Shown piece after piece: positions 18,665 to 35,452 of a DNA stretch of 64,000 nucleotides. How positions within the stretch are numbered: the first letter of the stretch is position 1; every line of letters begins with the position of its first letter. The translations under genes were made by a program, and so were the position numbers. The notes beneath the pieces are model-generated. The model did not search any database, was not told where the DNA came from, and saw only the letters and a list, made by a program, of their open reading frames with translations. Source of the stretch: Sneathiella sedimenti. Lineage in GTDB: Bacteria; Pseudomonadota; Alphaproteobacteria; Sneathiellales; Sneathiellaceae. The stretch lies in contig NZ_JAFLNC010000003.1 in assembly GCF_017313765.1 (NCBI RefSeq), positions 310,001-374,000 of the forward strand. Reading direction: 5' to 3'.

Positions 18665-21307
18665 ATGGCGACGTCTAACGGTAATAGCGGTAGCGGCACC
18701 GAAAAATCAACAGGGGCCGAGGTTATCATTGAGGCAACTCCGGGAAAAACGATTAAATTACCAGTTGAGTCCCTGGCAAGTATCCAGTTCGTACAGGACG
18801 GCGGTAACTTGCTTGTCGTACCGGTTGACGGCGGAAATACATATTTGCTTCAGGACTTCCTGACGTTCGGCACGACCGAAAATCCCCCTAACATTGAGCT
18901 GGAAAATGGTGACGTCCTCGAAATCGGGGAAATTACGCCTCTGGTTCAAGGCTTTTCCGTCGCGGATATAAATCCTCAGGCGGGTGATGACAACAGCGAT
19001 GGCGGCGGCGCGAACTTCCGGCCCTTTACAGACGGCAGCATTGGCGACCCGCTGGGAATTTCTGATCTACTTGCCCCGACAGAACTCGCATTTTCCCGCG
19101 AAGAAGAAGAAGAAATTATCGGGGAGAATGAGGATTCCTCCTCCACGAGGACGCCGACAGATGACCCTGGCGGGATAATTACATTGAATTTCTCCACTCC
19201 TATTGGAGGCGCCGCTCCCGCAGCGGGGGGATATGAAGACTGGCAGCCCAATCAGAATGTTGGGGACACTACCGAAACGCCGATGCAGATGTTGGTAGAG
19301 TTTACGCCGGAAACGGACGAGGAACTGACATCCATAGATATTTCCGGATTTCCGGCAGGCACGCGGTTTTTCGTTGGTGGATCGGCGGCAGGCGATGAAG
19401 TAGACGTGACAAGCGGGAGCTATTCAGTTCTGGCTGCGGGCGGTGTTCTGCCCGCGATGTATTTACTCCCGCCTGCAAATAGCGATGCGGACATTGTTCT
19501 TACCGTACTTGCTAATTTTGTTAATGGCACGGGTGACACAGGAACGTCAGAAGTTACCGGTACAGCAGTGATTGATGCGGTTGCTGATGCACCCACGATA
19601 TCCGGTGGTGATGCCAGCGGTGACGAGAATACGGCGATTGCGATACCTGAAATCACAGCGGCGCTACAGGATACGGACGGATCCGAAACACTCGCTGTGT
19701 CAATCGGCGGTGTCCCGGTAGGGGCAACACTGTCTGATGGTGTGAACAGTTTTACGGGGGACGGCTCTGACGCAGATGTTACAGGATGGGACCTTGCCGC
19801 GCTAACCATCACACCGCCAACAGATGATGATGCAGATTTCACATTGACGGTGACGGCGACCGCGACCGAAGCGGCAACAGTTGCCGACGGTGGTGAACTG
19901 ACTGAAGCCAATAATACGGCAAGCAGTACCTTTTCGGTTAATGTTACAGTCAATGACGTTCCTCCGGCCGATGATGGTCCGACAGCAGTTGACGATGGCC
20001 CCTTTGTCAAGGTGGAAGCCCCAGACATTCATGCTGTCTTTGTGATTGATACCTCCGGGAGCATGGACTGGAATGAATTGTCATTGATGGAGGCGGCGCT
20101 CAAAAATCTGGCAACGACATTGTTTGAGCAAAACCCGGACGGCACAGCGATTACCTTGATCGATTTCGATGAAACAGCCCGGTTTATCGGTGGAGGGACT
20201 TTTACAACGCTGGAATCTGTCTTGGATGCTTTGGATCCCCTGGATGCTTGGAGTGGCGGTAATACCAACTATGAGGATGCACTCAACCTCACACGCACGG
20301 TAGATTTTGTTCCAGGGTATGATCAGGCGATTTACTTTATTTCTGACGGGCAGCCGACAATAGGTGATACCCAAGCAGGTATAGATAGCTTTAACGACTG
20401 GGTAACGAATGACCTTAACAATGCCAAGGTTTACTCTGTCGGTCTCGGCGGCGATGCGGAAAATAGTGCGTATCTGGGCCAGATCGATAATACCCCGGAC
20501 GACAATAATCTCGACCCGGCTGCAGGCGATCCGTATCTCTATGTGGAAAGCCCTGAAGAACTATCCGCGAGCCTTCAGCCCGCTGATGCCTGGGTGACAG
20601 GGAATGTCCTTGATAATGACATTCTTGGAAGCGATCCACTGGCCGATATCCCGATTGTTTCGTTCACTTATAATGGTGTGACGTATGATTTGTCGTCGAC
20701 GTCGGGTCCTGGCGTCTTTGTTGACGGAAACGTTGTCGCCATTGACACTGAATTCGGTGTGTTTGAATTGAATTTTGAAACCGGTGAATATGCCTATCAG
20801 GTTCAATCCGATGTCGCCGATTTCGAAACGGAGGCGTTCAGCTACACCATTTCTGATGATGACGGATCGACAAGTTCCGCTGTTCTCACCATCACTATTG
20901 CGCCGGACAATGCCTTTACCGGAACGGCTGCGTCTGAGGTGATCAGCGGGGGTGACGCAAATGATTATATTCTTGGTGCCGGCGGAGATGATACGCTTTC
21001 CGGCGGGGACGGGGATGACCGGTTTGTCTATCAAAACGCCGGTGTTGACGGCAATGATGTGATTGAAGATTTTGGCGCTAACGGGGATGCGGATGTCATC
21101 GACCTGACAGCGCTATTTGATCAATTGGGCATTGCTGCTGCAGACCGCGCAGATCATGTTGTTTTCTCGGAAGCGGGGGGCGATACAACGATTACGGTTA
21201 CGGATGCCGCGGATTCCGAAATCGCCGGATTCTCGATTGTCGTGGAAAATGCGTCGCTCAACAGCTCCGATATCACAAATGGGAAAATAGTCGTCGACGA
21301 AAGTTAG
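18665..21307 (+). CDS. Large secreted VWA and RTX-type adhesin-like protein
   Basis: An 880-residue acidic, repeat-rich protein with no Sec signal peptide. Residues 1-100 form an N-terminal domain often seen on type I secreted adhesins. Residues 190-440 hold Ig-like or cadherin-like repeats. Residues 455-640 form a von Willebrand A domain with the MIDAS motif DTSGS (462-466). Residues 640-755 are another VCBS/Ig-like domain (FELNFETGEYAYQV, FSYTISDDDGS). Residues 773-787 carry calcium-binding GGDDTLSGGDGDD repeats, and the last 90 residues look like a type I secretion signal. It is probably exported to the surface for adhesion or aggregation. No ABC/HlyD/TolC export genes are next to it. Confidence 0.88.
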   Translation: MATSNGNSGSGTEKSTGAEVIIEATPGKTIKLPVESLASIQFVQDGGNLLVVPVDGGNTYLLQDFLTFGTTENPPNIELENGDVLEIGEITPLVQGFSVADINPQAGDDNSDGGGANFRPFTDGSIGDPLGISDLLAPTELAFSREEEEEIIGENEDSSSTRTPTDDPGGIITLNFSTPIGGAAPAAGGYEDWQPNQNVGDTTETPMQMLVEFTPETDEELTSIDISGFPAGTRFFVGGSAAGDEVDVTSGSYSVLAAGGVLPAMYLLPPANSDADIVLTVLANFVNGTGDTGTSEVTGTAVIDAVADAPTISGGDASGDENTAIAIPEITAALQDTDGSETLAVSIGGVPVGATLSDGVNSFTGDGSDADVTGWDLAALTITPPTDDDADFTLTVTATATEAATVADGGELTEANNTASSTFSVNVTVNDVPPADDGPTAVDDGPFVKVEAPDIHAVFVIDTSGSMDWNELSLMEAALKNLATTLFEQNPDGTAITLIDFDETARFIGGGTFTTLESVLDALDPLDAWSGGNTNYEDALNLTRTVDFVPGYDQAIYFISDGQPTIGDTQAGIDSFNDWVTNDLNNAKVYSVGLGGDAENSAYLGQIDNTPDDNNLDPAAGDPYLYVESPEELSASLQPADAWVTGNVLDNDILGSDPLADIPIVSFTYNGVTYDLSSTSGPGVFVDGNVVAIDTEFGVFELNFETGEYAYQVQSDVADFETEAFSYTISDDDGSTSSAVLTITIAPDNAFTGTAASEVISGGDANDYILGAGGDDTLSGGDGDDRFVYQNAGVDGNDVIEDFGANGDADVIDLTALFDQLGIAAADRADHVVFSEAGGDTTITVTDAADSEIAGFSIVVENASLNSSDITNGKIVVDES

Positions 21308-22012: not shown

Positions 22013-23629
22013 CTAGAAATCTCCAATGCCGGGCGAGATATTGCGTTTTTGCGGCGTACCCTGGCGGGTTTGTGGCGGTGGTGGCGCCGCGCGTTGTGCG
22101 CAGTTTGATCGTTCGCAAAGCCGACAGGTTATGCCGACAGGCATAACGGTTTTTGGCGCCGCAAGGTTAAGGCCATCGGCATAAATCAGTCGGTGTGCTT
22201 CTGCAATGTCGCAACCGATACTGATGGCGTAATGCCGTTTAGGCTGGGCATACCCGAGGCTGGGCTTGGTGACGGTGCGCGCGATGGAAAAGAAGCGTTG
22301 GCCATCGGGCATCTCGGAAATTTGCGGGCATAGGGCGCCGGGTGTTAAAAATGCGGCATGTAGTACCCAACGCGGGCAGGAATTGCCATATCGCGGGATG
22401 CGCAACCCTGACGCACTGAACCTTTTAGAGATATTGCCGGCCACATCACTTCGGATCAGATGAAAGGGAACACCGCTGCTGCCGGGTTTCATCAAGGTCG
22501 TCAACCGATGGCAAATTTGCTCAAAGCTGCCATCGAACTGCTGTTGCAACAACTCAATGTCATACCGCAGGTCTTCAGCCGATTTAAAAAACACATCATA
22601 TGGAAACAGAAAGGCGCCCGCGAAGTAATTTGAGAGCGCAGCTATACCCTTTTGCTTCGCCGCTTCTGTCGGGAGTTCCGGGGCGTTTACAAGGTCCTCA
22701 AATAGAGGAGTAAAGTTGAGCTGGCCGCACAGAAGGGCAAGATGAAACTTGACACTCGATTGAGGCAGAGATTTAGAGAGTACGAGTAAGTGATTTTTTT
22801 CGTCATAAAGAGTTGCTTCAGTATTGTGGCTGTCTCTTGAGGCAAACTCGATCTGAATGCCATGTTTCTCCTGCAGGTACTCCATCATCATGGGGGGTGT
22901 CAGGAGATTATGTTCATTGAAGGTGGCGCGAAATTCTGCCGCTGCCTGCTCTATCGGGTCAAAATAGTTATTCCGGGCCTGAATAAAATCGGAAACGGCC
23001 TCATTTGGCGATGGCGCCCAGGATTTTCCGGTCAAGCTGCCATCCCCGACGACGCCAAGCATTTCATTCACCGTATCATTGAGGGCTTCGCTGTCCTTTA
23101 GGGCGATCTGGAGAAATTCTTTTCGCTCTTTCGGGCCAAGATCATCATTGTCATGCACGATTTCGGTCGACGACATGATTGACGTCACGAGTGTCCGCAA
23201 CCGAAAGGATGAGCCGGCGAAAAGAAAATCCTGTGAAAGCCGCTCGCTCAGTAACTGCAAATCCGTTTGCGCAGCTTTAAACGCATCATATGCTTTCTTG
23301 AAAGCTGAACTGAGGGCAGGCGCATCTGCTGCCATTTCCGCAATTTCCTCATCCGTAAATTCATCCTCGGCAAACAGCGGGTCTTTCAGAGCGTCCGTAA
23401 TCTCACCAATCAGATGTCCTTCTTCCTGCGGCGAGAAGACTTGCGGGTCAACTTTCAGAATCTTGCTTAAATGCAGCAGTAACGGGACTGTAATGCTGCG
23501 CCTGTTATGTTCCAGCAAATTTAGATAGCTTGCAGAGATACCAAGCCGGTCGGCCAGTTCTACCTGGGTTATGTTTCTTTCTTTGCGCAATCTCCGTAAA
23601 CGATTGCCAAGCAGAGGTGATTTCGCCAT
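22013..23629 (-). CDS. ScfR/RamB-type short-chain fatty acyl-CoA regulator (XRE + M78-like + DUF2083)
   Basis: A 538-residue cytoplasmic regulator. Residues 8-64 form an XRE HTH (RRLRKERNITQVELADRLGI). A central ImmA/IrrE-like domain spans about 240-330. It lacks the zinc HExxH, showing KFHLALLCGQLNF in that place, so it is not a peptidase. The C-terminal DUF2083 domain ends in the cysteine cluster CRLCERSNCAQRA. Relatives include ScfR and the glyoxylate/acetate regulator RamB and the methylcitrate regulator MccR, which sense short-chain acyl metabolites. It is divergent from an ABC transporter operon that ends in acs. I use ATG 23629; a TTG lies one codon upstream. Confidence 0.88.
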   Translation of the reverse strand: MAKSPLLGNRLRRLRKERNITQVELADRLGISASYLNLLEHNRRSITVPLLLHLSKILKVDPQVFSPQEEGHLIGEITDALKDPLFAEDEFTDEEIAEMAADAPALSSAFKKAYDAFKAAQTDLQLLSERLSQDFLFAGSSFRLRTLVTSIMSSTEIVHDNDDLGPKERKEFLQIALKDSEALNDTVNEMLGVVGDGSLTGKSWAPSPNEAVSDFIQARNNYFDPIEQAAAEFRATFNEHNLLTPPMMMEYLQEKHGIQIEFASRDSHNTEATLYDEKNHLLVLSKSLPQSSVKFHLALLCGQLNFTPLFEDLVNAPELPTEAAKQKGIAALSNYFAGAFLFPYDVFFKSAEDLRYDIELLQQQFDGSFEQICHRLTTLMKPGSSGVPFHLIRSDVAGNISKRFSASGLRIPRYGNSCPRWVLHAAFLTPGALCPQISEMPDGQRFFSIARTVTKPSLGYAQPKRHYAISIGCDIAEAHRLIYADGLNLAAPKTVMPVGITCRLCERSNCAQRAAPPPPQTRQGTPQKRNISPGIGDF

Positions 23630-23644
23630 CAAGATATCCGAAAG

Positions 23645-23753
23645 TTTACAAAATTTTACAAATTTACAATTTAAATTAGTAATTATTTACATAAAAAAGT
23701 GATGTTTTACAAGGTTTTGTTGGGAAAAATGGCAAAAATGTGAAACTTTTACA
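23645..23753. promoter_or_regulatory. Array of TTTACA repeats between regulator and ABC operon
   Basis: Six copies of TTTACA in the same orientation start at 23645, 23655, 23663, 23686, 23706 and 23748, within the 204 bp divergent gap. The first two continue as TTTACAAA. They are likely operator units for the neighbouring XRE/DUF2083 regulator, which would then control itself and the transporter. This is inferred from repetition and position. Confidence 0.5.
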
Positions 23754-23833: not shown

Positions 23834-25186
23834 ATGAGCGATATCAAAAAACCAGGCATGTCGCGCCGCGGCCTTCTCAAGGCTGGCGCAGTTGGTGGCC
23901 TGGTCGCCGCTACTCCAAGCTTCTTTATCAAAGATGCCTGGGCGCAAGAATTCCGTAACAATCCGAAAAATTCAGGCGAACTCAAGCTTGGCTTTAACGT
24001 ACCACAATCAGGCCCTTATGCGGATGAAGGGGCGGATGAACTTCGCGCCTACATGCTGGCCGTTAAGCATCTGAATGGTGAAGGTGACGGTGGTATGCTG
24101 AACACATTCAAGCCATCCATGCTGACCGGTAACGGTGTTCTTGGCAAAAAAGTGACCTACTCTACTGGCGATACGCAGACGAAGTCTGATGCCGCACGCG
24201 CGTCGGCAAAACGCATGATCGAGAAAGATGGCGTGCTGATGGTGACCGGCGGGTCTTCCTCTGGTGTGGCTATCGCGGTGCAATCCCTCTGCCAGGAACA
24301 GGGCATCATTTTTATGGCGGGTCTGACCCATTCCAACGATACCACGGGTAAAGACAAGCGCCGCTATGGTTTCCGCCACTTCTTCAATGCCTATATGTCC
24401 GGGGCCGCACTGGCACCGGTGCTGAATAAAGAATATGGATCCGATCGCCGGGCCTATCACTTGACAGCGGACTATACCTGGGGCTGGACACAGGAGGAAT
24501 CCATCAAGAACTCCACCGAAGCACTTGGCTGGGAAACCGTCAATACGGTCAAGACGCCTGTCGGCGCTGGTGACTTCTCGCAATATATCACGCCGGTTCT
24601 CAATTCAGGTGCGGACGTTCTTATCCTCAACCACTACGGTAAGGATATGGTCAACTCACTGAGCCAGGCCGTACAGTTCGGCTTGCGTGAAAAACAGGCC
24701 AACGGCAAGAATTTTGAAATTGTTGTGCCGCTCTTTTCGCGTCTGATGGCGCAAGGTGCAGGCGATGCGATCAAGGGTATTCTTGGAACAACGAACTGGA
24801 ATTGGTCCTTACAGGATGAAGGATCACAGGCGTTTGTTCAGTCTTTCGGTGCGGAATATGGGGCACCGCCGTCAATGGCAGCCCATACCTGCTATGTCCA
24901 GACATTGCTTTATGCAAACGCCTGCGAGATGGCTGGTACATTCTATCCGCCGGAAGTCATCAAGCAGCTTGAGGGCTTCAATTTTGACGGCATGGGCAAC
25001 GGCCCGACACTTTATCGTGCAGAAGATCATCAATGCTTCAAGGATGTTCTTGTGGTGCGCGGTAACGAAAACCCGAGTAGTCAATTCGACCTCCTGAAGG
25101 TGGTTGATATTACCCCGCGGGCCCAGGTTGAGTATGACTGGACCATTTTCGGCGGATCTCTTGGTCCGTATGAAGTAAAAATGTAG
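23834..25186 (+). CDS. Liv-type ABC transporter substrate-binding protein (Tat-exported)
   Basis: A 450-residue type I periplasmic binding protein of the amide/branched-chain amino acid/urea class. The leader MSRRGLLKAGAVGGL with a twin-arginine motif and a DAWAQ-E cleavage site indicates Tat export. The mature part starts GELKLGFNVPQSGPYADEG and contains TGGSSSGVAIAVQSLCQEQ. It feeds the two permeases and two ATPases that follow. The operon ends next to acetyl-CoA synthetase and faces a short-chain acyl regulator, so a short-chain carboxylate or amide is a plausible ligand. Leucine or urea cannot be ruled out. The start follows GGGAGAC. Confidence 0.88.
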   Translation: MSDIKKPGMSRRGLLKAGAVGGLVAATPSFFIKDAWAQEFRNNPKNSGELKLGFNVPQSGPYADEGADELRAYMLAVKHLNGEGDGGMLNTFKPSMLTGNGVLGKKVTYSTGDTQTKSDAARASAKRMIEKDGVLMVTGGSSSGVAIAVQSLCQEQGIIFMAGLTHSNDTTGKDKRRYGFRHFFNAYMSGAALAPVLNKEYGSDRRAYHLTADYTWGWTQEESIKNSTEALGWETVNTVKTPVGAGDFSQYITPVLNSGADVLILNHYGKDMVNSLSQAVQFGLREKQANGKNFEIVVPLFSRLMAQGAGDAIKGILGTTNWNWSLQDEGSQAFVQSFGAEYGAPPSMAAHTCYVQTLLYANACEMAGTFYPPEVIKQLEGFNFDGMGNGPTLYRAEDHQCFKDVLVVRGNENPSSQFDLLKVVDITPRAQVEYDWTIFGGSLGPYEVKM

Positions 25187-25200
25187 TTTCTATTACCGCA

Positions 25201-25245
25201 CGCGGGTTGGCAGATGTCGGGAGGGCAGCCAACCCGCGAACTTTT
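25201..25245 (+). promoter_or_regulatory. Strong hairpin after the binding-protein gene
   Basis: CGCGGGTTGGC (25201-25211) and GCCAACCCGCG (25228-25238) form a perfect 11-bp GC-rich stem, 15 bp after the binding-protein stop, followed by AACTTTTGC. Such hairpins protect the upstream message or partly terminate, giving more binding protein than membrane components. Confidence 0.65.
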
Positions 25246-25296
25246 GCAATGGATTAGCCGGCAATAAAACTTGCGGGATTGTTTGGGGTAGGTTTC

Positions 25297-26313
25297 ATGG
25301 ATGCCATTTTTATTCAAATATTAAATGGACTGGATAAAGGGGCGGCTTACGCCCTGATTGCGCTTGGCTTGACACTGGTGTTCGGAACATTGGGAATTGT
25401 GAATTTTGCCCATGGCGCATTGTTTATGCTTGGAGCATTTTGCGCCGTTACCTTTCAGAAGCTTGTCACTTTATCGGTTAAGGTTCGTGATGAAGGGATT
25501 ACGGCGTTCGTTGCCTACAAGGAGCAGCCTTACCTCGAAACCTGGTTTGGCGACACTGGTCGGATAATTATTGATTATTCCGTCCCACTTTCCATCATGC
25601 TGGCCATCCCATTCATGTTGCTGGTCGGCTATGTCATGGAGCGGGGACTGATCAAGCATTTCTACAAGCGTCCTCATGCAGAGCAAATTCTGGTTACCTT
25701 TGGCCTTGCAATCGTTATTCAGGAAATCATCAAGGCTTATTTTGGCGCCAACCCGATACCGCAGCCCGCGCCTGAAATTCTGGCGGGCAGCGCGAATGTT
25801 GGCTCCTGGGTCGGGCTTGGCAATAACCTCGTCTATCCGTGGTGGCGCCTTATCTACCTCTGCTTTTCCGGTGCGGTCATTTTCGCGGTGTTCGCGTTCT
25901 TGCAGTTCACCACCTATGGCATGGTGGTCCGCGCCGGGATGCGCGATCGCGAAACCGTCGGGATTCTCGGCATCAATATTGAGCGTCGCTTTACTATCGT
26001 TTTTGCCATCGCCGCCGTCGTCGCCGGTGTCGCCGGCGTAATGTACACGCCAATCCTTCCGCCTGATTATCATCTTGGTATGGAGTTTCTGGTGCTTTCC
26101 TTCGTTGTTGTGGTCGTCGGCGGCATGGGGTCGCTAGGGGGGGCGGTGTTTGCCGGTTTCCTGCTGGGTGTTGTGCAGTCTTTTGCCTCTATGAATGAAG
26201 TAAAGGAGATTTTTCCGGGGATCGACCAGATCATTTTATATCTCGTCGCTGTTGTAATCTTACTGGTCTTGCCACGTGGGCTTATGGGCCGGGCTGGAGT
26301 TATGGATGACTGA
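25297..26313 (+). CDS. LivH-type ABC transporter permease
   Basis: A 338-residue inner-membrane permease with eight to nine helices. It opens with [25 protein letters not shown], the LivH signature, followed by [16 protein letters not shown]. The segment between residues 60 and 100 is longer and more polar than in E. coli LivH. I start at ATG 25297 after GGGGTAGG; an in-frame TTG at 25279 is less likely. It overlaps the next permease by 8 bp. Confidence 0.9.
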
Positions 26314-27463
26314 TACCAAGAAGCCGCTACTTAATGACACATTTATCGTGATCATTTTTGCCGCCGCCATCTTGGCGATGCCGATCTGGCTGGATCCTAT
26401 TGGCGGCAACTATCCGGACCTGCTGCAGAAATTTGCCATTTACGGAATTTTCGCCATTGGCTTTAATATCCTTTTCGGTCTGACCGGATATCTTTCTTTC
26501 GGTCACGCAGCTTTTCTCGGTGTCGGGTCGTATGCCGCTGTCTGGTCGTTCAAGCTGTTGACGATGAACGTCATTCCGGCCGTTATTTTTGGCGTCCTGT
26601 TCGCAGGAATTCTTGCGGCGGTTATCGGCTTTCTAAGCCTGCGCCGATCGGGCATTTACTTCTCAATCCTCACGCTGGCCTTTGCCCAGATGTCCTATAA
26701 TCTCGCCTATTCAGTACTAACGCCGATTACAAACGGGGAAACGGGGCTGCAATTGGCCCGATCCGATCCACGCATCCTGGATCACCTGTTCTCAGACAGC
26801 CAGGCATCGGCGGGACTACCGAGCACGGACTTGTTCGGCGAAACGATGAGCGGTTATCCCGGCTTTTATTTCTGTGCCGTTCTGTTGATTATCTGTTTTT
26901 ACATCTCCATGCGGATATTCCGCTCTCCTTTTGGCCTGATGCTGAAAGGGATCAAGTCCAACCAGAACCGAATGAAATATACGGGCCTGAACACACGCCC
27001 CTACATGCTGACGGCGTTCATAATCTCCGGCATGTATGCCGGGTTGGCGGGGAGCCTGCTTGCGGTCACGGATCCATTGGCCGGCGCTGAAAGAATGCAA
27101 TGGACTGCCTCGGGTGAAGTCGTGTTGATGACAATTCTCGGCGGCGCCGGCACGCTTGTCGGGCCGATGCTGGGCGCAGGCTTGATCAAGTATTTTGAAA
27201 ATATCTTCTCTGCCTTCGATGACAATGTGCTTGCACAGGCCTTCTCCTTCCTGCCCGACAGCGTCGTCGAGTTTGTCGTGCCGGTGGTGGGCCTATTTGT
27301 CGGCAGTGGTTGGCATCTGACTTTGGGCCTGTTGTTTATGGTCATTGTGATATTCCTGCCCGGCGGGCTCGTGGAAGGATTCCGCCGTGTCGTCAATTAT
27401 TTCAGGTCAGGTGGAAACGCGAAGCAACAATCCGTGGAAGCGCAAAATCAGGCTGGCGAGTAA
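26306..27463 (+). CDS. LivM-type ABC transporter permease
   Basis: A 385-residue LivM-like permease with about ten helices. The family segment [28 protein letters not shown] and the C-terminal loop [20 protein letters not shown] are present, with a polar inserted loop around residues 150-185. The start ATG 26306 lies inside the end of the preceding gene. It pairs with the LivH-type subunit to form the channel. Confidence 0.9.
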
Positions 27464-27474
27464 AAGGAAATATC

Positions 27475-28233
27475 ATGGGCGATCTCGTTCTTCATCTGGA
27501 TAATATCAATAAAAGCTTTGGCGGCCTCAGTGCTCTGTCCGATGTCAATCTGCATGTGGAGGAAGGGACGACGCATGCCATCATTGGCCCCAACGGAGCG
27601 GGAAAATCAACGCTTCTGAATGTTTGTATCGGCCGGCTGAAGCCGGATACAGGGAAAGTGACCTTTGCGGGTGAGGTTCTAACCGGCAGGCAACCGCATG
27701 AAATTGCCCAGCTTGGCGTTGCCCGAGTTTTTCAGACGCCAGAGATTTTTCAGGAAATGACGCTGCTTGAGAATGTAATGATTCCGGCTCTTTCCCATCG
27801 CGACGGGGCTTTTCGGCTGAACGCAACTGAACTTCTAAGCAAGCAGGGGGAAGTCCGCGAAGAGGCAGAACATATCCTTGAAGATGTCGGGTTAAAGGAC
27901 ATGATGATGGTCGAGGCGGCAAGCTTAAGCCGGGGTGACAAGCGCAGGCTGGAGCTCGGCATGTGTCTTATCTTGCGGCCACGTCTTTTGCTGCTCGACG
28001 AGCCGACTGCAGGCATGGCACGCCATGACACCAACCAGACCATTGAACTGTTAAAGAAGATCAAGTCTCGCGGGATGACAAAAGTGATTATTGAGCACGA
28101 CATGCATGTTGTCTTCAGTCTTGCGGACAAGGTCAGTGTGTTGGCGCGCGGACAGATTATAGCAGGCGGAGATCCGCAGAGTGTACGTGAGGATCCGAAG
28201 GTCAAGGAAGCGTATTTGGGAGGGACCACTTAA
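27475..28233 (+). CDS. LivG-type ABC transporter ATP-binding protein
   Basis: A 252-residue ABC ATPase. Walker A is GPNGAGKST (residues 37-45), the signature is degenerate, LSRGDKRRLELGMCL rather than LSGGQ, and Walker B is LLLLDEPTAGM with an H-loop in IIEHDMHVV. The AGM sequence and C-terminal YLGG are typical of LivG. It ends in a one-base TAATG overlap with the next ATPase. Confidence 0.9.
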   Translation: MGDLVLHLDNINKSFGGLSALSDVNLHVEEGTTHAIIGPNGAGKSTLLNVCIGRLKPDTGKVTFAGEVLTGRQPHEIAQLGVARVFQTPEIFQEMTLLENVMIPALSHRDGAFRLNATELLSKQGEVREEAEHILEDVGLKDMMMVEAASLSRGDKRRLELGMCLILRPRLLLLDEPTAGMARHDTNQTIELLKKIKSRGMTKVIIEHDMHVVFSLADKVSVLARGQIIAGGDPQSVREDPKVKEAYLGGTT

Positions 28234-28958
28234 TGTCTGAGACCTCAGAAGCAATGCCATATTTCAGTGTAAAGGATATTCACGCCTATTATGGTGAATC
28301 CTACATTGTGCAAGGGGTTTCCTTCGACGTTGAAGAGGGGGATATCGTTGCGTTGCTGGGGCGGAATGGTGCCGGAAAAACATCTACATTGCGGGCGCTT
28401 GCCCGCGTCGACAGCCCCTCTTTGAAGCGCGGAGAGATCTATCTTAATGGTAAGGCGATTCATCCCCTCAAGGCATATCAAGCCGCGCAAGCAGGTGTCC
28501 AGCTTGTTCCGGAAGACCGCCGCATTATTGGCGGGCTGACGGTGGAGGAGAATTTATTGCTTTCCCAGGTAGCGGAACCGAAAGGGTGGGAAATAGAGCG
28601 TATTTATGACCATTTCCCGCGTCTTGGCGAAAGACGGAACCAGGATGCCGTTACTATGTCTGGTGGAGAGCAGCAGATGCTGGCAGTTGCCAGAGCGCTT
28701 GCGCGTGATGTGAAATTGTTGTTTCTTGATGAACCCTATGAAGGCCTCGCGCCGGTCATTGTTCAGGAAATCGAGAAAATTCTACTCGAAGTTAAAAACC
28801 TCGGGATTACCACGATTATTGTTGAACAGAATGCAGTTGCGGCGTTACAGCTTGCCGACAAGGCGCTCATCCTGGACATGGGGCAAATTGCCTTTCGCGG
28901 CACCGCGCAGCAAGTGCTGGAAGACCAGGAATTGCGGCATGAATATCTCGCGATTTGA
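28233..28958 (+). CDS. LivF-type ABC transporter ATP-binding protein
   Basis: A 241-residue ABC ATPase with Walker A GRNGAGKTST, the signature MSGGEQQMLAVARAL, Walker B LLFLDEPYEGLAP and the C-terminal EYLAI of LivF proteins. VPEDRRIIGGLTVEENL is the usual LivF Q-loop neighbourhood. It completes a five-gene Liv-type importer. The DEPYEGLAP form is typical of LivF/UrtE-like subunits and does not define the substrate. Confidence 0.9.
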   Translation: MSETSEAMPYFSVKDIHAYYGESYIVQGVSFDVEEGDIVALLGRNGAGKTSTLRALARVDSPSLKRGEIYLNGKAIHPLKAYQAAQAGVQLVPEDRRIIGGLTVEENLLLSQVAEPKGWEIERIYDHFPRLGERRNQDAVTMSGGEQQMLAVARALARDVKLLFLDEPYEGLAPVIVQEIEKILLEVKNLGITTIIVEQNAVAALQLADKALILDMGQIAFRGTAQQVLEDQELRHEYLAI

Positions 28959-29088
28959 CGGCGGAAATTCAGTATTTTCTGACATTTAGGTTGTATTTAG
29001 ATGGAGACGAACGCATAAATATCCTGTCACATACTGCCGAAAATTAAACATTGAAAAAACTGTATGTTGGGTGAAAGGACTTAGTAGG

Positions 29089-31029
29089 ATGTCAGCAAAG
29101 GATCTATATCCCGTACCTCAGGAACTTGCAAAGACAGCTTGGGCCGATAAGACGAGTTATCAGGCGATGTACCGTGCGTCGGTTGAAGATCCCGATGCTT
29201 TCTGGGGCGAGCATGGAAAGCGGATTGACTGGATTAAACCCTACACCAAAGTGAAAGATGTTTCCTTTGCAAAGGACGACCTGCATATCAAATGGTTTTA
29301 TGACGGGACCTTGAACGTCAGCTACAACTGTCTTGATCGTCACCTTGAAACGCGTGGCGATAGTCCCGCCATTATCTGGGAGGGGGACGATCCAAATGAC
29401 GATAAAACCCTGACGTATCGCGAATTGCATGCCGAGGTATGCAAGTTTGCCAATGTGCTCAAGGCTCAAGGCATCAAAAAAGGGGACCGCGTGACCCTGT
29501 ATATGCCGATGATCGTCGAGGCCGCGGTTGCCATGCTCGCCTGTACACGCATCGGTGCCATTCATTCGATCGTGTTCGGCGGATTTTCCCCAGATGCTCT
29601 GGCCGGTCGAATTAGGGATTGCAAATCGAATTGCGTGATTACCGCGGATGAAGGAGTTCGCGGAGGGCGGCCGATACCCCTCAAGGCCAATACGGATGCG
29701 GCGCTGGCGGATTGCCCCGACTGCACGACATGTATTGTTGTCAAGCGCACTGGCGGGACTATTAACTGGGTCGACGGCCGAGACGTCTGGTACCACGAGG
29801 CAATGGACAAGGTCGATGCCGTTTGCCCGCCCGAGGAAATGAACGCGGAAGATCCACTTTTTATTCTGTATACCTCCGGGTCTACTGGCCAGCCGAAGGG
29901 CGTGTTGCACACAACGGGTGGCTATATCGTCTACGCGGCCATGACTCACCGGTACGTGTTTGACTACCACGATGGCGATATTTACTGGTGTACAGCCGAT
30001 GTCGGCTGGGTAACAGGTCATAGCTATATCATTTACGGACCCCTTGCGAATGGCGCAACGACCTTGATGTTTGAAGGGGTGCCGAACTATCCGACGGTCT
30101 CCCGCTTCTGGGAGGTATGCGACAAACACAACGTCAATATTTTCTATACGGCGCCGACAGCGATCCGCGCCTTAATGCGTGACGGTGATGAACCGGTCAA
30201 GAAGACATCCCGCAAATCGCTGCGGTTGCTGGGGTCTGTCGGTGAGCCAATTAATCCGGAAGCCTGGCGTTGGTATTATGATGTCGTTGGGGAGGGGCGC
30301 TGCCCGATCGTCGATACCTGGTGGCAGACGGAGACAGGCGGTATTCTGATCTCGCCGCTGCCAGGCGCTATGGACTTGAAGCCAGGCTCCGCCACACTTC
30401 CATTCTTTGGAATAGAACCCGTAATGGTCGATACCGAGGGCGCTGTTCTGGAGGGGCCCTGCGAAGGTATGCTGTGTATCAAGGATAGCTGGCCCGGACA
30501 AATGCGAACAGTGTATGGCGACCATGAACGCTTTGTTCAGACCTATTTCAGCAATTTCTCCGGTCTCTATTTTAGTGGTGATGGGGCGAGACGGGATGAA
30601 GACGGTTACTATTGGATTACAGGTCGCGTTGACGACGTGATTAATGTCTCCGGTCACCGGATGGGGACGGCCGAGGTTGAGAGCGCGCTTGTTGCACATG
30701 AACTGGTGGCGGAAGCGGCCGTTGTAGGATATCCACATGATATCAAGGGGCAGGGGATATATGCCTATGTCACCTTGACCGCAGGGGTTGCCCCGTCAGA
30801 GGAATTGCGCGCCGAATTGGTCAAGTGGGTCCGTAATGAAATTGGTCCCATTGCCACACCGGATCTGATTCAGTGGGCCCCCGGCCTTCCTAAAACTCGC
30901 TCGGGCAAGATCATGCGACGTATCTTGCGTAAAGTGGCCGAGAATGACTATGCCAGTCTCGGCGACACGTCAACATTGGCAGAGCCCGCGGTAGTTGAAG
31001 AACTGATCGAAAACAGGATGAACAAGTAA
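29089..31029 (+). CDS. acs: Acetyl-CoA synthetase
   Basis: A 646-residue AMP-forming acetate-CoA ligase, the normal length. It converts acetate, ATP and CoA to acetyl-CoA by way of acetyl-AMP. The ATP loop [11 protein letters not shown], the substrate/adenine region [11 protein letters not shown] and the A10 motif [11 protein letters not shown] are present. Lys607 is the residue usually controlled by acetylation. The start is ATG 29089 behind AAAGGAC, not the GTG at 29071. It lies 130 bp after the Liv-type transporter and upstream of a CrbS-like kinase, a family known to control acs in Vibrio and Pseudomonas. Confidence 0.96.
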
Positions 31030-31213: not shown

Positions 31214-31603
31214 ATGACTCATACAGTGCTTGTGGTGGAAGACGAGCCGAATATCGTACTGTCTTTACAATTTATTTTGAGGCAAGCCGGGTTTACTGTG
31301 CGGGTGGCGCGCGATGGGGAACAGGCACTGCGGGCCGTTGAGGACTATGTGCCCGATCTGGTGATATTGGATATTATGCTGCCCAAGCAGGACGGTTTTG
31401 CGGTTTGTGAAGCCATCAGAGCGAATGCGGCCTGTGCGAATGTAAAAATTATCATGCTGTCGGCAAAAAGCCGGGAAGCAGACAAGGAAAGAGCGGTCGC
31501 GCTCGGCGCGGATGAATTTGTTACAAAGCCTTTTTCCACGCGTGCCCTTGGCAAGATGGTGAAGGAAATTGTGGCACCGGCGAACACGTCATTAGCACGC
31601 TAA
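31214..31603 (+). CDS. Stand-alone response regulator receiver
   Basis: A 129-residue CheY-like receiver with no output domain. The acidic pocket is Glu9-Asp10, the phosphoacceptor Asp53 (VILDIMLP), the conserved Ser83 and Lys105 (FVTKPFS). It lies between acs and the SLC5-histidine kinase gene, so it is the likely phosphoacceptor of that kinase. In CrbSR systems the partner CrbR carries a LuxR-type HTH. Here that domain is missing, so the output must go through another protein. The start ATG follows GGGAGC. Confidence 0.92.
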   Translation: MTHTVLVVEDEPNIVLSLQFILRQAGFTVRVARDGEQALRAVEDYVPDLVILDIMLPKQDGFAVCEAIRANAACANVKIIMLSAKSREADKERAVALGADEFVTKPFSTRALGKMVKEIVAPANTSLAR

Positions 31604-31648
31604 GTAAATCTGAAGTTCGGGTTTTGACCATTTGACGGGTGAGGTTGG

Positions 31649-31918
31649 ATGATAAGGACAGGGCGAAAAAAGGAATGGTCAGTTCTTCTGTTCGTCGCCT
31701 GTCTTGTCGCCCTCCTGCCGCCGGTTATTGCCCTGTTTGATAGCTCTATCCGTGTATTTGGCATCCCTCTCAGCTATCTGTTCGTGTTTGGAGTCTGGGC
31801 TTTCGCAATCGCCATGACGGCGTTGGGCGCAAGGCGGGGACCCGAGAAGGCGATCGGACCGCCAGAAGCGGAAAGGGGAGGGCCCAGCTCGACTGACCCC
31901 GGCCGGGGAAAACAGTAA
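31649..31918 (+). CDS. Small two-helix membrane protein preceding an SSS transporter
   Basis: An 89-residue protein with two hydrophobic helices (about 13-32 and 40-60) and a polar, proline-rich tail. Its length, the FGIPLSYLFVFGVW segment and its place directly before a sodium:solute symporter recall the small partner subunits (DUF3311/DUF485-like) found upstream of SLC5 transporters such as ActP. A one-base TAATG overlap couples it to the next gene. I expect it to help assembly or function of the SLC5-kinase; this is inference. Confidence 0.7.
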   Translation: MIRTGRKKEWSVLLFVACLVALLPPVIALFDSSIRVFGIPLSYLFVFGVWAFAIAMTALGARRGPEKAIGPPEAERGGPSSTDPGRGKQ

Positions 31919-34668
31919 TGTCTGGCGGATTGGTCCTCACTGTTTCCATTCTCTATCTGGGGCTCCTTTTCGCCATCGCCCAATTTGTCGACCTTCAGTC
32001 TGCGAAGGGACGCCAGCTAACCAGAAACCCCTTTATCTATACCTTATCGATCGGCGTTTATTGTACTTCCTGGACATTTTACGGCAGTGTCGGGCTTGCC
32101 GCCACGGAAGGGCTTGGATTCCTGCCGATATATCTTGGTCCGACGCTGGTTTTTGTCCTCTGGTCTGTCGTCTGGGTTAAGATTATCCGTATTTGTAAGG
32201 TGCATCGGATAACGTCGATTGCGGATTTTATCGCCTCACGTTACGGCAAGCAGGCGAAATTGGGCGGTTTGGTAACGATCATCGCTGTGGTCGGCACTAT
32301 GCCCTATATTTCGCTTCAGCTAAAATCCATCGCAACCAGCTTTAGAATCCTCGTCAGCTCTTCGGAAACGGCAATTTTGCATGCCCCGAACGAAGCCATC
32401 TTCTTCATCGATACAACGCTGATCGTGGCTATTGCGCTTGCGCTTTTTGCTATTCTTTTCGGGACACGCCATATCGACGCAAGCGAACATCATGAGGGGC
32501 TGGTCGCTGCAATCGCCTTTGAATCCGTGGTCAAGCTGGTCACTTTTCTGGCTGTCGGATTCTTCGTCACCTTTGGTCTTTACAACGGATTCGCAGACCT
32601 TTTCTCAACGGCCGCGGATAGGGGGCTGGATTCGCTTTTCACGGTTTCCAAGGATAATGACTACAGTGTGTGGATGACAATGACCGTGCTATCCATGGCG
32701 GCAATCATCTGTCTGCCCCGGCAGTTTTATATGACAGCCGTGGAGAATCCGGATGAATCATTTCTCCGCAAGGCAACCTGGTTGTTTCCACTCTATCTGC
32801 TGGTCATTAATATATTTGTCTTACCAATCGCGCTCGCAGGTCGATTGTCGTTTGGCGGCGCCTCGGCCGATGCGGATATGTTTATGCTGACCGTGCCGCT
32901 TTTTCATGACCAGGCGTTTTTGGCGCTCATCGCCTTCATTGGCGGATTGTCAGCGGCAACGTCAATGGTCATCGTCGCCTCGATCGCACTGGCGACGATG
33001 GTGTGCAATGACCTTATCATGCCGCTGCTATTGCGCTGGCGTGGCCTCAATATCAACAAGAATGATGACCTGACCGGGTTACTGCTCACCATCCGGCGGG
33101 TTAGTATTCTTCTCATTCTGATCCTTGGTTATGTTTATTATCTGATCGCGAGTGAGTCATACTCTCTCGTTACCATAGGCCTTGTCTCCTTTGCGGCGGC
33201 GGCACAGTTCGCGCCAGCCATCATAGGCGGCATTTTCTGGAAAGGGGCATCCTATCGGGGGGCAATGACCGGTCTCGCACTTGGTTTTATCGTCTGGCTA
33301 TACACATTGCTGCTCCCGTCGTTTGCCCAGTCAGGATGGCTTCCAATTAGCTTTATAGAACAGGGACCTTATAGCATTTCACTTTTAAAGCCCTATGCGC
33401 TTTTCGGTATGGAAGGGTTTGATCGTCTGACCCATGCCTTGTTCTGGAGCATGTTTTTTAACATCGGGGCATACTGGATCGTCTCCCTGGTGTCTCACCA
33501 AACCGCGATTGAACGAATTCAGGGAACGTTGTTTGTCGATGTTTTCGGGCATACAGATGATGAGCGCGACAGCCGTTACTGGCGTGGTTCTGCGACGGTC
33601 GCGGACTTGCAGCAACTCGTGGGTCGATTTGTCGGGGTGCAGCGGGCGGCACAGGCATTCGCGGATTTCGCAGCTGAGCGGGACATTAATTTACGTAAAA
33701 GTCATTCCGCTGATGCCGCCTTGCTCGACTTTGCGGAGAAAATGCTGGCCGGCGCCATCGGCTCCGCAACGGCCCGGGTGATGGTAGGCTCTGTAGTGAA
33801 AGGTGAGATCGTTGGACTCGAAGAGGTGTATCGTATTCTTGATGAAACCAGTCAGGTTATTGAATACAGCCATCGGCTAGAGCAGAAATCAGCAGAACTG
33901 GAGCGGGCGACGGCCCAGCTCCGTAACGCCAACGAGCGACTGAAAGAGCTTGATTCCTTGAAGGATCACTTTCTCTCCATGGTGAGTCACGAACTCCGGA
34001 CCCCCCTGACGTCACTTCGCGCATTTGGCGAAATATTGATAGATAATCCAGAGGTATCACCGGAGGAACGAGAACGGTTTCTGAATGTCATTATCAAGGA
34101 AAGCTCACGCCTGACCCGGCTAATTGACCAGCTCCTTGATCTCGCCCGCATGGAAGCCGGACAGATGGACTGGTCGCTGGACACAGTCGATATCGCGGCC
34201 ACAATACGCGAGGCAATGGCAACGCTTGCCGGTCTGATCAAGGAAAATGAAGTCGAGGTGGAAACGCGAATTCCCGAGGATTTACCATTGGTGCGGGCGG
34301 ATCGCGACCAACTTATCCAGGTGGTCATTAATCTCGTTTCAAACGCCATTAAGTTCTGTGACAAGGAAAATGGTCATATCGACCTCTCGGTATCCGCAGG
34401 AGACGATATGTTGAAGGTGAGTGTTGCCGATAACGGAAAAGGAATTGCGGAGAATATGATGGAGCATATTTTCGAAAAGTTCCATCAGTCGATTGGACGC
34501 GATGAAGACAAACCGCAAGGATCAGGGCTCGGCCTTGCCATTTGCCGGGAGATTGTTTCGTTCTTGGGCGGTCATATTTGGGTCACGAACAAGCATGAGG
34601 GCGGAGCTGTCTTTGCCTTCACCGTCCCTCGCGCCGATCGTCAGGATATGAGGCTCTCTGCCGAATAG
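31918..34668 (+). CDS. SLC5 symporter-STAC-histidine kinase fusion (CrbS-like)
   Basis: A 916-residue membrane sensor. Residues 1-530 form a 13-helix sodium:solute symporter module. A STAC-type linker follows at about 545-640 (ATVADLQQLVGRFVGVQRAA), then a coiled coil, a HisKA domain with phospho-accepting His691 in MVSHELRTPLTS, and a C-terminal HATPase (N box NLVSNAIKFCDK, G1 DNGKGI, G2 GSGLGLAI). No PAS domain separates STAC and HisKA. CrbS and CbrA share this layout; CrbS controls acs in response to acetate. Its position two genes after acs supports a CrbS-like role, with the receiver at 31214 as partner. Confidence 0.92.
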   Translation: MSGGLVLTVSILYLGLLFAIAQFVDLQSAKGRQLTRNPFIYTLSIGVYCTSWTFYGSVGLAATEGLGFLPIYLGPTLVFVLWSVVWVKIIRICKVHRITSIADFIASRYGKQAKLGGLVTIIAVVGTMPYISLQLKSIATSFRILVSSSETAILHAPNEAIFFIDTTLIVAIALALFAILFGTRHIDASEHHEGLVAAIAFESVVKLVTFLAVGFFVTFGLYNGFADLFSTAADRGLDSLFTVSKDNDYSVWMTMTVLSMAAIICLPRQFYMTAVENPDESFLRKATWLFPLYLLVINIFVLPIALAGRLSFGGASADADMFMLTVPLFHDQAFLALIAFIGGLSAATSMVIVASIALATMVCNDLIMPLLLRWRGLNINKNDDLTGLLLTIRRVSILLILILGYVYYLIASESYSLVTIGLVSFAAAAQFAPAIIGGIFWKGASYRGAMTGLALGFIVWLYTLLLPSFAQSGWLPISFIEQGPYSISLLKPYALFGMEGFDRLTHALFWSMFFNIGAYWIVSLVSHQTAIERIQGTLFVDVFGHTDDERDSRYWRGSATVADLQQLVGRFVGVQRAAQAFADFAAERDINLRKSHSADAALLDFAEKMLAGAIGSATARVMVGSVVKGEIVGLEEVYRILDETSQVIEYSHRLEQKSAELERATAQLRNANERLKELDSLKDHFLSMVSHELRTPLTSLRAFGEILIDNPEVSPEERERFLNVIIKESSRLTRLIDQLLDLARMEAGQMDWSLDTVDIAATIREAMATLAGLIKENEVEVETRIPEDLPLVRADRDQLIQVVINLVSNAIKFCDKENGHIDLSVSAGDDMLKVSVADNGKGIAENMMEHIFEKFHQSIGRDEDKPQGSGLGLAICREIVSFLGGHIWVTNKHEGGAVFAFTVPRADRQDMRLSAE

Positions 34669-34672
34669 AAAC

Positions 34673-35452
34673 TCATGTATTGGCCCTGTAGATCATGATA
34701 AAGCCGATTAGGCAAACCAGGCCCAGAACAATTTTCTTAAAGGTTTTCTGATCAATCAGGTGACGTACCTTGGTTCCCGCCCACATCCCGGCGAAGAGTG
34801 GCCCCAGGCCGATGAGGCTGTAGGCAATTTCCGTGGGTTTTAGAAAATTCATGCTTTGCAGGCTGAGCAACAGGAAAATGCTGCCACCAAATAGCATGAC
34901 GCTGACCGCCGCGATGAACTTTTCCTTCTCCAGGCCAAGCGCAATAAAGAAAAAGACCGGCAACGTCCCAAAAAGCGTTGTTATGCCCCCGATTATACCG
35001 GCTGCGAGACCAACCGTTGGGCCAGAAATTCTCTCGTGCGATCCCAGAAAGGAGAAGGAAACGCCAAAATATTCCAGCCCTGAAATTAGGATCAGGAAAC
35101 TGCCAACCGCGATAAGAAGATACTTCGTGTCGACAGTAGAGAGCATGAACACGCCGATCGGTAATCCAATAAACAATCCCAGCAGCAGTCGCCAGTGCCG
35201 TGCGATCGATGTCTTGATATGACCTGACACGATCATCTGAACAAAATTGGTGATAACCATTGGCAACGTCATTATGGCAACCGCCGCAGGCAAGGACATA
35301 AAAAAGACGATAATAGGCACCGCGATAGTTGGCAGGCCAAATGCGGAAATGCCCTTAACAAATCCCCCAAGTGCAAAGGCAATGCAGACGACAAGCAGAT
35401 GGAAAAGATTGAATTCAGGAAGATATTGGGTGATCATGGCTAGGGGCCGCAT
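34673..35452 (-). CDS. TauE/SafE-family membrane transporter
   Basis: A 259-residue inner-membrane protein of the sulfite-exporter TauE/SafE family with about eight helices and two repeated halves. FALGGFVKGISAFGLPTIAVPI near the N-terminus and GIIGGITTLFGTLPVFFF in the second half are the duplicated family motifs. Members move sulfite, sulfoacetate or other organosulfur anions; no sulfur genes are nearby. Two ATG starts (35452 and 35437) are possible, neither with a good ribosome-binding site. It converges on the kinase gene with a 4 bp gap. Confidence 0.85.
   Translation of the reverse strand: MRPLAMITQYLPEFNLFHLLVVCIAFALGGFVKGISAFGLPTIAVPIIVFFMSLPAAVAIMTLPMVITNFVQMIVSGHIKTSIARHWRLLLGLFIGLPIGVFMLSTVDTKYLLIAVGSFLILISGLEYFGVSFSFLGSHERISGPTVGLAAGIIGGITTLFGTLPVFFFIALGLEKEKFIAAVSVMLFGGSIFLLLSLQSMNFLKPTEIAYSLIGLGPLFAGMWAGTKVRHLIDQKTFKKIVLGLVCLIGFIMIYRANT

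Follow-up and report, generated by a model that had tools for sequence, protein, structure and literature searches.

A candidate relay from a transporter-type histidine kinase through a stand-alone receiver to a DHp-bearing ScfR regulator in Sneathiella sedimenti

We analyzed a 64,000-nucleotide stretch of the Sneathiella sedimenti genome (contig NZ_JAFLNC010000003.1, positions 310,001 to 374,000; hereafter the window, with positions counted from its first letter) that encodes a histidine kinase with a transporter-like sensor half and, close by, a receiver protein lacking any output domain. The main finding concerns a third gene of the window, which encodes a transcriptional regulator of the ScfR/RamB family. 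Sequence comparison and structure prediction argue strongly that this regulator carries a DHp (HisKA) hairpin homologous to that of the kinase itself. We consider it likely, on sequence and by analogy with the DivK-DivL pair of Caulobacter, that the signal passes from the kinase to the receiver and on to ScfR, through phosphotransfer in most relatives and through docking of the DivK-DivL kind in Sneathiella. A ScfR-type regulator had been named in a first-pass annotation of the locus as one possible exit for the signal, a suggestion that the kinase-derived hairpin now backs. The proteins and domains on which the argument turns are as follows:

31918..34668 (+): SLC5-STAC-HisKA-HATPase histidine kinase of the short clade (see below), 916 amino acids (aa); His691 at 33988-33990; no PAS domain and no fused receiver
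33598..33798 (+): STAC-like four-helix bundle, residues 561-627 of the kinase
31214..31603 (+): stand-alone receiver, 129 aa; Asp10, Asp53 (31370-31372), Ser83 and Lys105 (31526-31528); no output domain
31649..31918 (+): CbrX-like hydrophobic protein, 89 aa; two-helix hairpin by homology
22013..23632 (-): ScfR/RamB-family regulator, 539 aa; HTH_3, DHp-like hairpin, IrrE/M78-like domain and ScfRs domain
23051..23233 (-): DHp (HisKA)-like hairpin, residues 134-194 of ScfR; Phe143 at the position of kinase His691; Arg146 and Thr150 kept

The DHp-like hairpin of ScfR

By its domains (PF09856 with a helix-turn-helix [HTH] and an M78-like domain), the regulator belongs to the ScfR family, and its fold matches that of PrpR with a template-modeling (TM) score of up to 0.87 by target length. 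In a search with the kinase of its own genome (3.58 Mb, completeness 100), the weakest accepted match was the ScfR gene (E = 1e-5), which does not encode a kinase. The matching stretch lies between the HTH and the putative acyl-coenzyme A (acyl-CoA)-binding half of ScfR and aligns with kinase residues 682-742, Phe143 standing opposite His691. AlphaFold predicts two helices here (136-161 and 167-195) joined by a short connecting loop.

Comparison with other genomes drew on 80 named homologous loci, chosen for similarity, and on about 100 extra loci from class and phylum samples, the phylum sample being read at a hand-picked spread of places; genes were called from first start codons. The sampled genomes are related and hence not independent, so that the P value of a Fisher test on hairpin linkage, computed conservatively with 18 linked and 4 unlinked hairpin-bearing ScfRs instead of 19 and 3, serves only as a rough guide. 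A profile of the DHp domain of short-clade kinases matched 67 of the 70 ScfRs found in such loci, at up to 74 bits, and the three ScfRs without a hairpin are second ScfR genes that do not adjoin the receiver. Every one of the 67 hairpins found its best match in a short-clade kinase (median of 50 bits, versus 28 with other kinases and 21 with long-clade ones, fewer of which were in the set). In 53 loci, ScfR and the receiver are direct neighbors with the same orientation. We also surveyed ScfRs across the class; this survey overlaps the first set in genomes, its 43 negatives are new, and 18 kinases picked up through their own DHp were excluded from the counts. Nineteen of its 22 hairpin-bearing genes lay beside a receiver or this kinase; the other three comprised one at a contig end, one duplicate of a linked gene and one in a genome whose kinase is elsewhere. 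None of the 43 hairpin-less ScfRs had a receiver or such a kinase beside it. As a separate observation, one hairpin-bearing ScfR (L336:1109-2755) has an adjacent receiver of its own, the kinase-receiver pair of that genome lying on another contig (L123).

One might object that the hairpin is a generic coiled coil whose likeness to a DHp domain has nothing to do with the kinase; it is, after all, short and helical, and the window copy matches Pfam HisKA weakly (E = 0.0015, below the cut-off). We find this hardly credible. The alignment spans 60 residues and keeps the LRT..TS core, and Pfam HisKA matched 26 of 39 ScfRs at E up to 1 (the best at 4e-10), passing the cut-off in locus L142. Moreover, a ScfR profile run against the PDB retrieved HK853 (2e-6), the kinase of the classic kinase-receiver complex, and DivL (1e-4). 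Shuffled hairpins never reached such scores (0 of 6,700 above 11 bits), and hairpin-less ScfRs scored nothing.

Of the 67 hairpins, 61 retain the phosphoacceptor His; the other six all have Phe and come from the window and the genomes closest to it (Sneathiella and near kin). The Glu at +1, which serves autophosphorylation in kinases, is mostly lost, and 66 of 67 hairpins have Thr, Ser or Asn at position +4, residues of the kind used there by HisKA phosphatases. No ATP-binding domain accompanies the hairpin, which thus could take phosphate from the receiver, return it or bind the receiver, but could not make phosphate itself. The conserved +4 position, set against the loss of +1 Glu, would also fit a reading in which the hairpin acts on the receiver, as a phosphatase or a decoy that drains or sequesters the phosphorylated form (receiver~P); ScfR with acyl-CoA bound would then shut the kinase pathway down. 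We regard this as rather improbable, given that Sneathiella has Phe in place of His and that the final target of the receiver would still be missing.

For the Phe-bearing copies, DivL offers a precedent. Its DHp domain, with Tyr in place of His, binds DivK~P; the preference for the phosphorylated form persists when this residue is Phe, and binding is disrupted by changes at Arg +3 or Thr +7 (PMC4211667). Arg146 and Thr150 of the window ScfR occupy these +3 and +7 positions. From sequence and predicted fold, we propose that the two cases share a stand-alone receiver read by a DHp domain with an aromatic residue for His. They differ in that DivL is a pseudokinase acting on CckA, whereas the DHp domain in the window sits in a DNA-binding metabolite sensor, most relatives of which keep the His.

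The window regulator shares its HTH, IrrE/M78-like and ScfRs domains with RamB, PrpR and PccR, but unlinked members of the family are without the DHp hairpin; in PrpR, a shorter stretch, not visible in the crystal, joins the HTH to the IrrE-like domain (PMC6765138). The literature searched, with most subscription papers outside its reach, described neither a DHp domain in a ScfR nor a link between a receiver and a ScfR. The nearest remark is that the Paracoccus homologues Pden_1785 and Pden_2985 are located with, among others, a two-component system (PMC10370305).

A separate clade of transporter-kinases

The layout first proposed for the kinase (SLC5-STAC-HisKA-HATPase, with His691) was borne out. 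Pfam recognizes the core (HisKA, 1e-19; HATPase_c, 4e-29), and His691 is invariant among 38 aligned kinases. The Pfam SSF model found no match in the transporter half; however, a histidine kinase chain in the PDB (10ed_A, 606 aa), which we take to be the cryo-electron microscopy structure of CbrA, matches residues 7-471 at E = 1e-71, and by fold comparison this half resembles SGLT2 (8hb0). AlphaFold places a four-helix bundle (561-627) where STAC is expected, followed by a single long helix that runs into the DHp domain, and this stretch could be aligned with the corresponding one in all 56 CrbS/RpuS-type kinases. Sequence and model together thus point to an SLC5 domain, then STAC, then HisKA-HATPase.

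The label "CrbS-like" did not survive. The transporter-kinases fall into two groups by length, about 900 aa (short) versus 1100-1340 aa (long). The gap between STAC and the core is about 13 residues in the short clade and 112-286 in the long clade, where it holds PAS, and the extension after the core is 0-55 aa versus 136-174 aa, the latter being a fused receiver (in one Pseudomonas long-clade kinase, Pfam finds both PAS_7 and Response_reg). In trees of the sensor and of the core alike, each clade is monophyletic and the two are fully separated. CrbS and RpuS of Sinorhizobium are hybrid kinases with LuxR partners (PMC9100948), and LuxR-type genes lie near 35 of the 56 long-clade kinases. Having no PAS domain, no C-terminal receiver and no LuxR-type partner, and falling in the other clade, the window kinase is on sequence a member of the separate short clade rather than an odd CrbS. 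What it has in common with CrbS/CrbR (MxtR/ErdR) and RpuS/RpuR is the SLC5-STAC sensor fused to HisKA-HATPase and, for CrbS/CrbR, linkage to acs; theirs are the PAS domain, fused receiver and LuxR-type regulator, whereas the short clade has a stand-alone receiver and a small membrane subunit.

The pairing with a bare receiver, which had looked like an anomaly of one locus, is the rule in this clade. By a simple neighbor rule, 112 of 122 short-clade loci have a co-directional stand-alone receiver, as against 0 of 56 long-clade loci. These 122 include CbrA, three further receivers are hidden in over-long open reading frames (ORFs) and four loci lie near a contig end, so that a fair count is 115 of 121 for the short clade against 0 of 56 for the CrbS/RpuS type. 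The window receiver itself is a single Response_reg domain (PF00072, 7e-30, residues 5-116 of 129) and, as the first-pass annotation had described it, carries Asp53 and Lys105 but no DNA-binding domain; none of 116 homologous receivers departs from Asp10, Asp53 or Lys105. The survey of receiver length that had been suggested as a check gave a median of 127 residues, receiver-only proteins being the norm. As a more direct link we considered a receiver-ScfR fusion and rejected it: none occurred in the loci read, seemingly long receivers being due to over-long ORF starts.

The receiver had been called the only nearby partner of the kinase. This stands insofar as the neighboring response regulator is the 129-aa receiver alone, not one of NtrC type (CbrB-like); it does not stand insofar as the 89-aa membrane protein encoded between receiver and kinase was overlooked. 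The end of its gene overlaps the kinase start in the sequence TAATG, which makes translational coupling likely. Only two short-clade loci, both starting at contig ends, lack a gene of this kind, whereas all 56 long-clade loci lack it. The best outside match of its profile was Pseudomonas CbrX (E = 0.003; hhalign P = 6e-6). By sequence, then, the protein appears to be a CbrX-like subunit encoded upstream of, and overlapping, the kinase start, as in CbrA/B. CbrX has been described as well conserved in Pseudomonas and Azotobacter (PMC6591292); it is a helical-hairpin peptide from an upstream overlapping gene and is bound to the CbrA transporter domain in the structure (PMC13022988). The CbrA/CbrX/CbrB system of Pseudomonas thus shares with the window an SLC5-type kinase without a fused receiver and the upstream, overlapping membrane-peptide gene, but CbrA has PAS and a sigma-54 regulator as its partner, with no ScfR involved.

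It had been allowed beforehand that the true partner might be a LuxR-type CrbR elsewhere. No receiver-LuxR protein was found in the whole genome; its only two GerE domains are both without a receiver. As an aside, both are fused to domains that, from our reading of the sequences, we take to be AroM-like (L011:1468-2382 and L012:1483-2394), an unusual type of regulator. The 31 receiver and two Hpt matches in the genome would in principle supply a longer phosphorelay, from the receiver to a separate Hpt and thence to a DNA-binding regulator elsewhere. We think this very unlikely, since neither a DNA-binding response regulator nor an Hpt was seen as a regular neighbor of the module in the loci read (although Hpt was not specifically searched for there), whereas the hairpin-bearing ScfR is one.

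The proposed relay and its surroundings

We propose that the locus is a carboxylate/acyl-sensing relay built on a separate branch of SLC5-STAC kinases. The transporter-like domain, probably together with the CbrX-like subunit, would sense or move a small substrate and so set the activity of the kinase core. The kinase would then phosphorylate the stand-alone receiver at Asp53, as suggested by the conserved catalytic residues and the strict pairing, and receiver~P would engage the DHp-like hairpin of ScfR. In most relatives, where the His is kept and the Glu usually lost, this probably amounts to phosphotransfer or back-transfer to ScfR. In Sneathiella, phospho-specific docking, comparable to that of DivK~P on the DivL pseudokinase, is more probable, in view of the DivL precedent and the presence of Arg146 and Thr150 at the places critical in DivL. 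ScfR would presumably read two inputs, the substrate through the relay and acyl-CoA directly; its relatives bind CoA esters directly (PMC10370305).

The target of this pathway may lie in the promoter region shared by ScfR and a divergent transporter operon:

23645..23711 (+): cluster of TTTACAAA-like boxes in the divergent promoter of ScfR and the ATP-binding cassette (ABC) transporter; spacing preferred across loci, 31-32 bp
23834..28958 (+): HAAT-type ABC transporter operon, divergent from ScfR; binding protein, two permeases and two ATPases
29071..31029 (+): acs, acetate-CoA ligase; TIGR02188, 1047 bits versus a cut-off of 725

The order receiver, 89-aa membrane protein, kinase begins 0.2 kb behind acs on the same strand, in keeping with the proximity to acs noted earlier. 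From the ScfR/ABC promoter onward, all genes through the kinase (ABC genes, acs, and those for the receiver and the small protein) are co-directional, no gap exceeding about 185 bp, and the HAAT-type operon is a conserved partner of the kinase-receiver-ScfR module. Boxes like TTTACAAA occur in the divergent ScfR/ABC intergenic region of most loci, mostly in one orientation, and the 9-mer ATTTACAAA is found in 27 of 48 such regions (0.3 expected). Boxes of the TTTGCAAA type were rejected as candidates; they are rare in the ScfR promoter, and TTTACAAA is enriched instead. Two-box sites at the 31-32 bp spacing occur three times in the genome, and only that at 23645-23711 is intergenic, the other two lying within ORFs. 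Known ScfR sites consist of paired, near-identical boxes (PMC10370305). In our scheme, ScfR would act at the TTTACAAA boxes on its own promoter and that of the ABC transporter, beyond whose genes acs and the kinase operon follow in the same direction. Two other genes of the region may be mentioned: a TauE/SafE-family transporter (34673-35452), convergent with the kinase and found only in Sneathiella-type loci, and, upstream of the cluster, an 880-aa protein that combines a vWA domain with an RTX calcium-binding repeat (18665-21307).

Several observations weigh against a path from kinase through receiver to ScfR. In Sneathiella, the ScfR gene lies about 8 kb upstream of the receiver, on the opposite strand and outside the receiver operon. 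The window hairpin is among the weaker copies (35 bits) and has lost its His. No TTTACAAA box clusters were found before acs or the receiver gene. In addition, some loci of alpha-, beta- and gammaproteobacteria and of Bacteroidota have the kinase and receiver with no visible ScfR. These last loci would suit a different reading, in which the receiver serves the kinase as a phosphate sink or feedback element, a detached form of the receiver fused to CrbS, while ScfR answers to acyl-CoA alone and its hairpin is a dimerization relic. A sink has been proposed in Vibrio cholerae, where acsA expression rose once the CrbS receiver had been deleted (PMC5436829); the direct binding of CoA esters by ScfR relatives would likewise agree with this reading. 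Nevertheless, we judge this reading unlikely. A relic would not be expected to keep its His in nearly all copies or to be confined to ScfRs linked to this kinase, and a pure sink would leave the kinase without an output, because no other DNA-binding partner was found nearby.

Other lineages and wider meaning

The relay through ScfR may have a counterpart in other lineages. In beta-, gamma- and some alphaproteobacterial loci, the gene after the receiver encodes a membrane-PAS-pseudo-DHp protein with a fused RNase_T exonuclease (for example, L051:7617-9671, L039:13164-15323 and L142:2708-4819), in which the His of the pseudo-DHp is mostly replaced by Glu. This DnaQ/RNase_T fusion is the direct neighbor of 31 receivers, and P. 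putida PP_0353, a member of the MxtR/ErdR regulon, may, we presume, be its kin. It constitutes a second DHp-bearing candidate output, which fits the same scheme more weakly. In one such locus the gene run goes on (L039:15325-21105) to a DUF294/CBS nucleotidyltransferase and an ActP-like symporter, an acetate-type set. In three Bacteroidota loci (L058, L059 and L066), the small subunit, kinase and receiver are followed by two acyl-CoA synthetases, with no ScfR or exonuclease in view. Acyl-CoA synthetase genes also occur in betaproteobacterial as well as Bacteroidota loci, which indicates a recurrent link to short-chain acyl activation.

One broader, albeit tentative, possibility is that a metabolite-sensing transcription factor captured a kinase DHp domain, which would let a stand-alone receiver pass phosphate to, or dock on, the DNA-binding protein itself. 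The receivers of this clade might then be shuttles to DHp-bearing outputs, namely ScfR in alphaproteobacteria and, elsewhere, the PAS/pseudo-kinase-exonuclease with its mostly Glu-substituted His.

The analysis splits the transporter-kinases into two kinds with different outputs, and the range of the CbrX-type subunit extends far past Pseudomonas. Many alphaproteobacterial families have the module with a DHp-bearing transcription factor. For most stand-alone receivers the route to the target has yet to be explained; in this case, the sequence itself suggests a candidate. The family also provides a natural series, with His in most genera and Phe in Sneathiella, in which a relay can be compared with docking.

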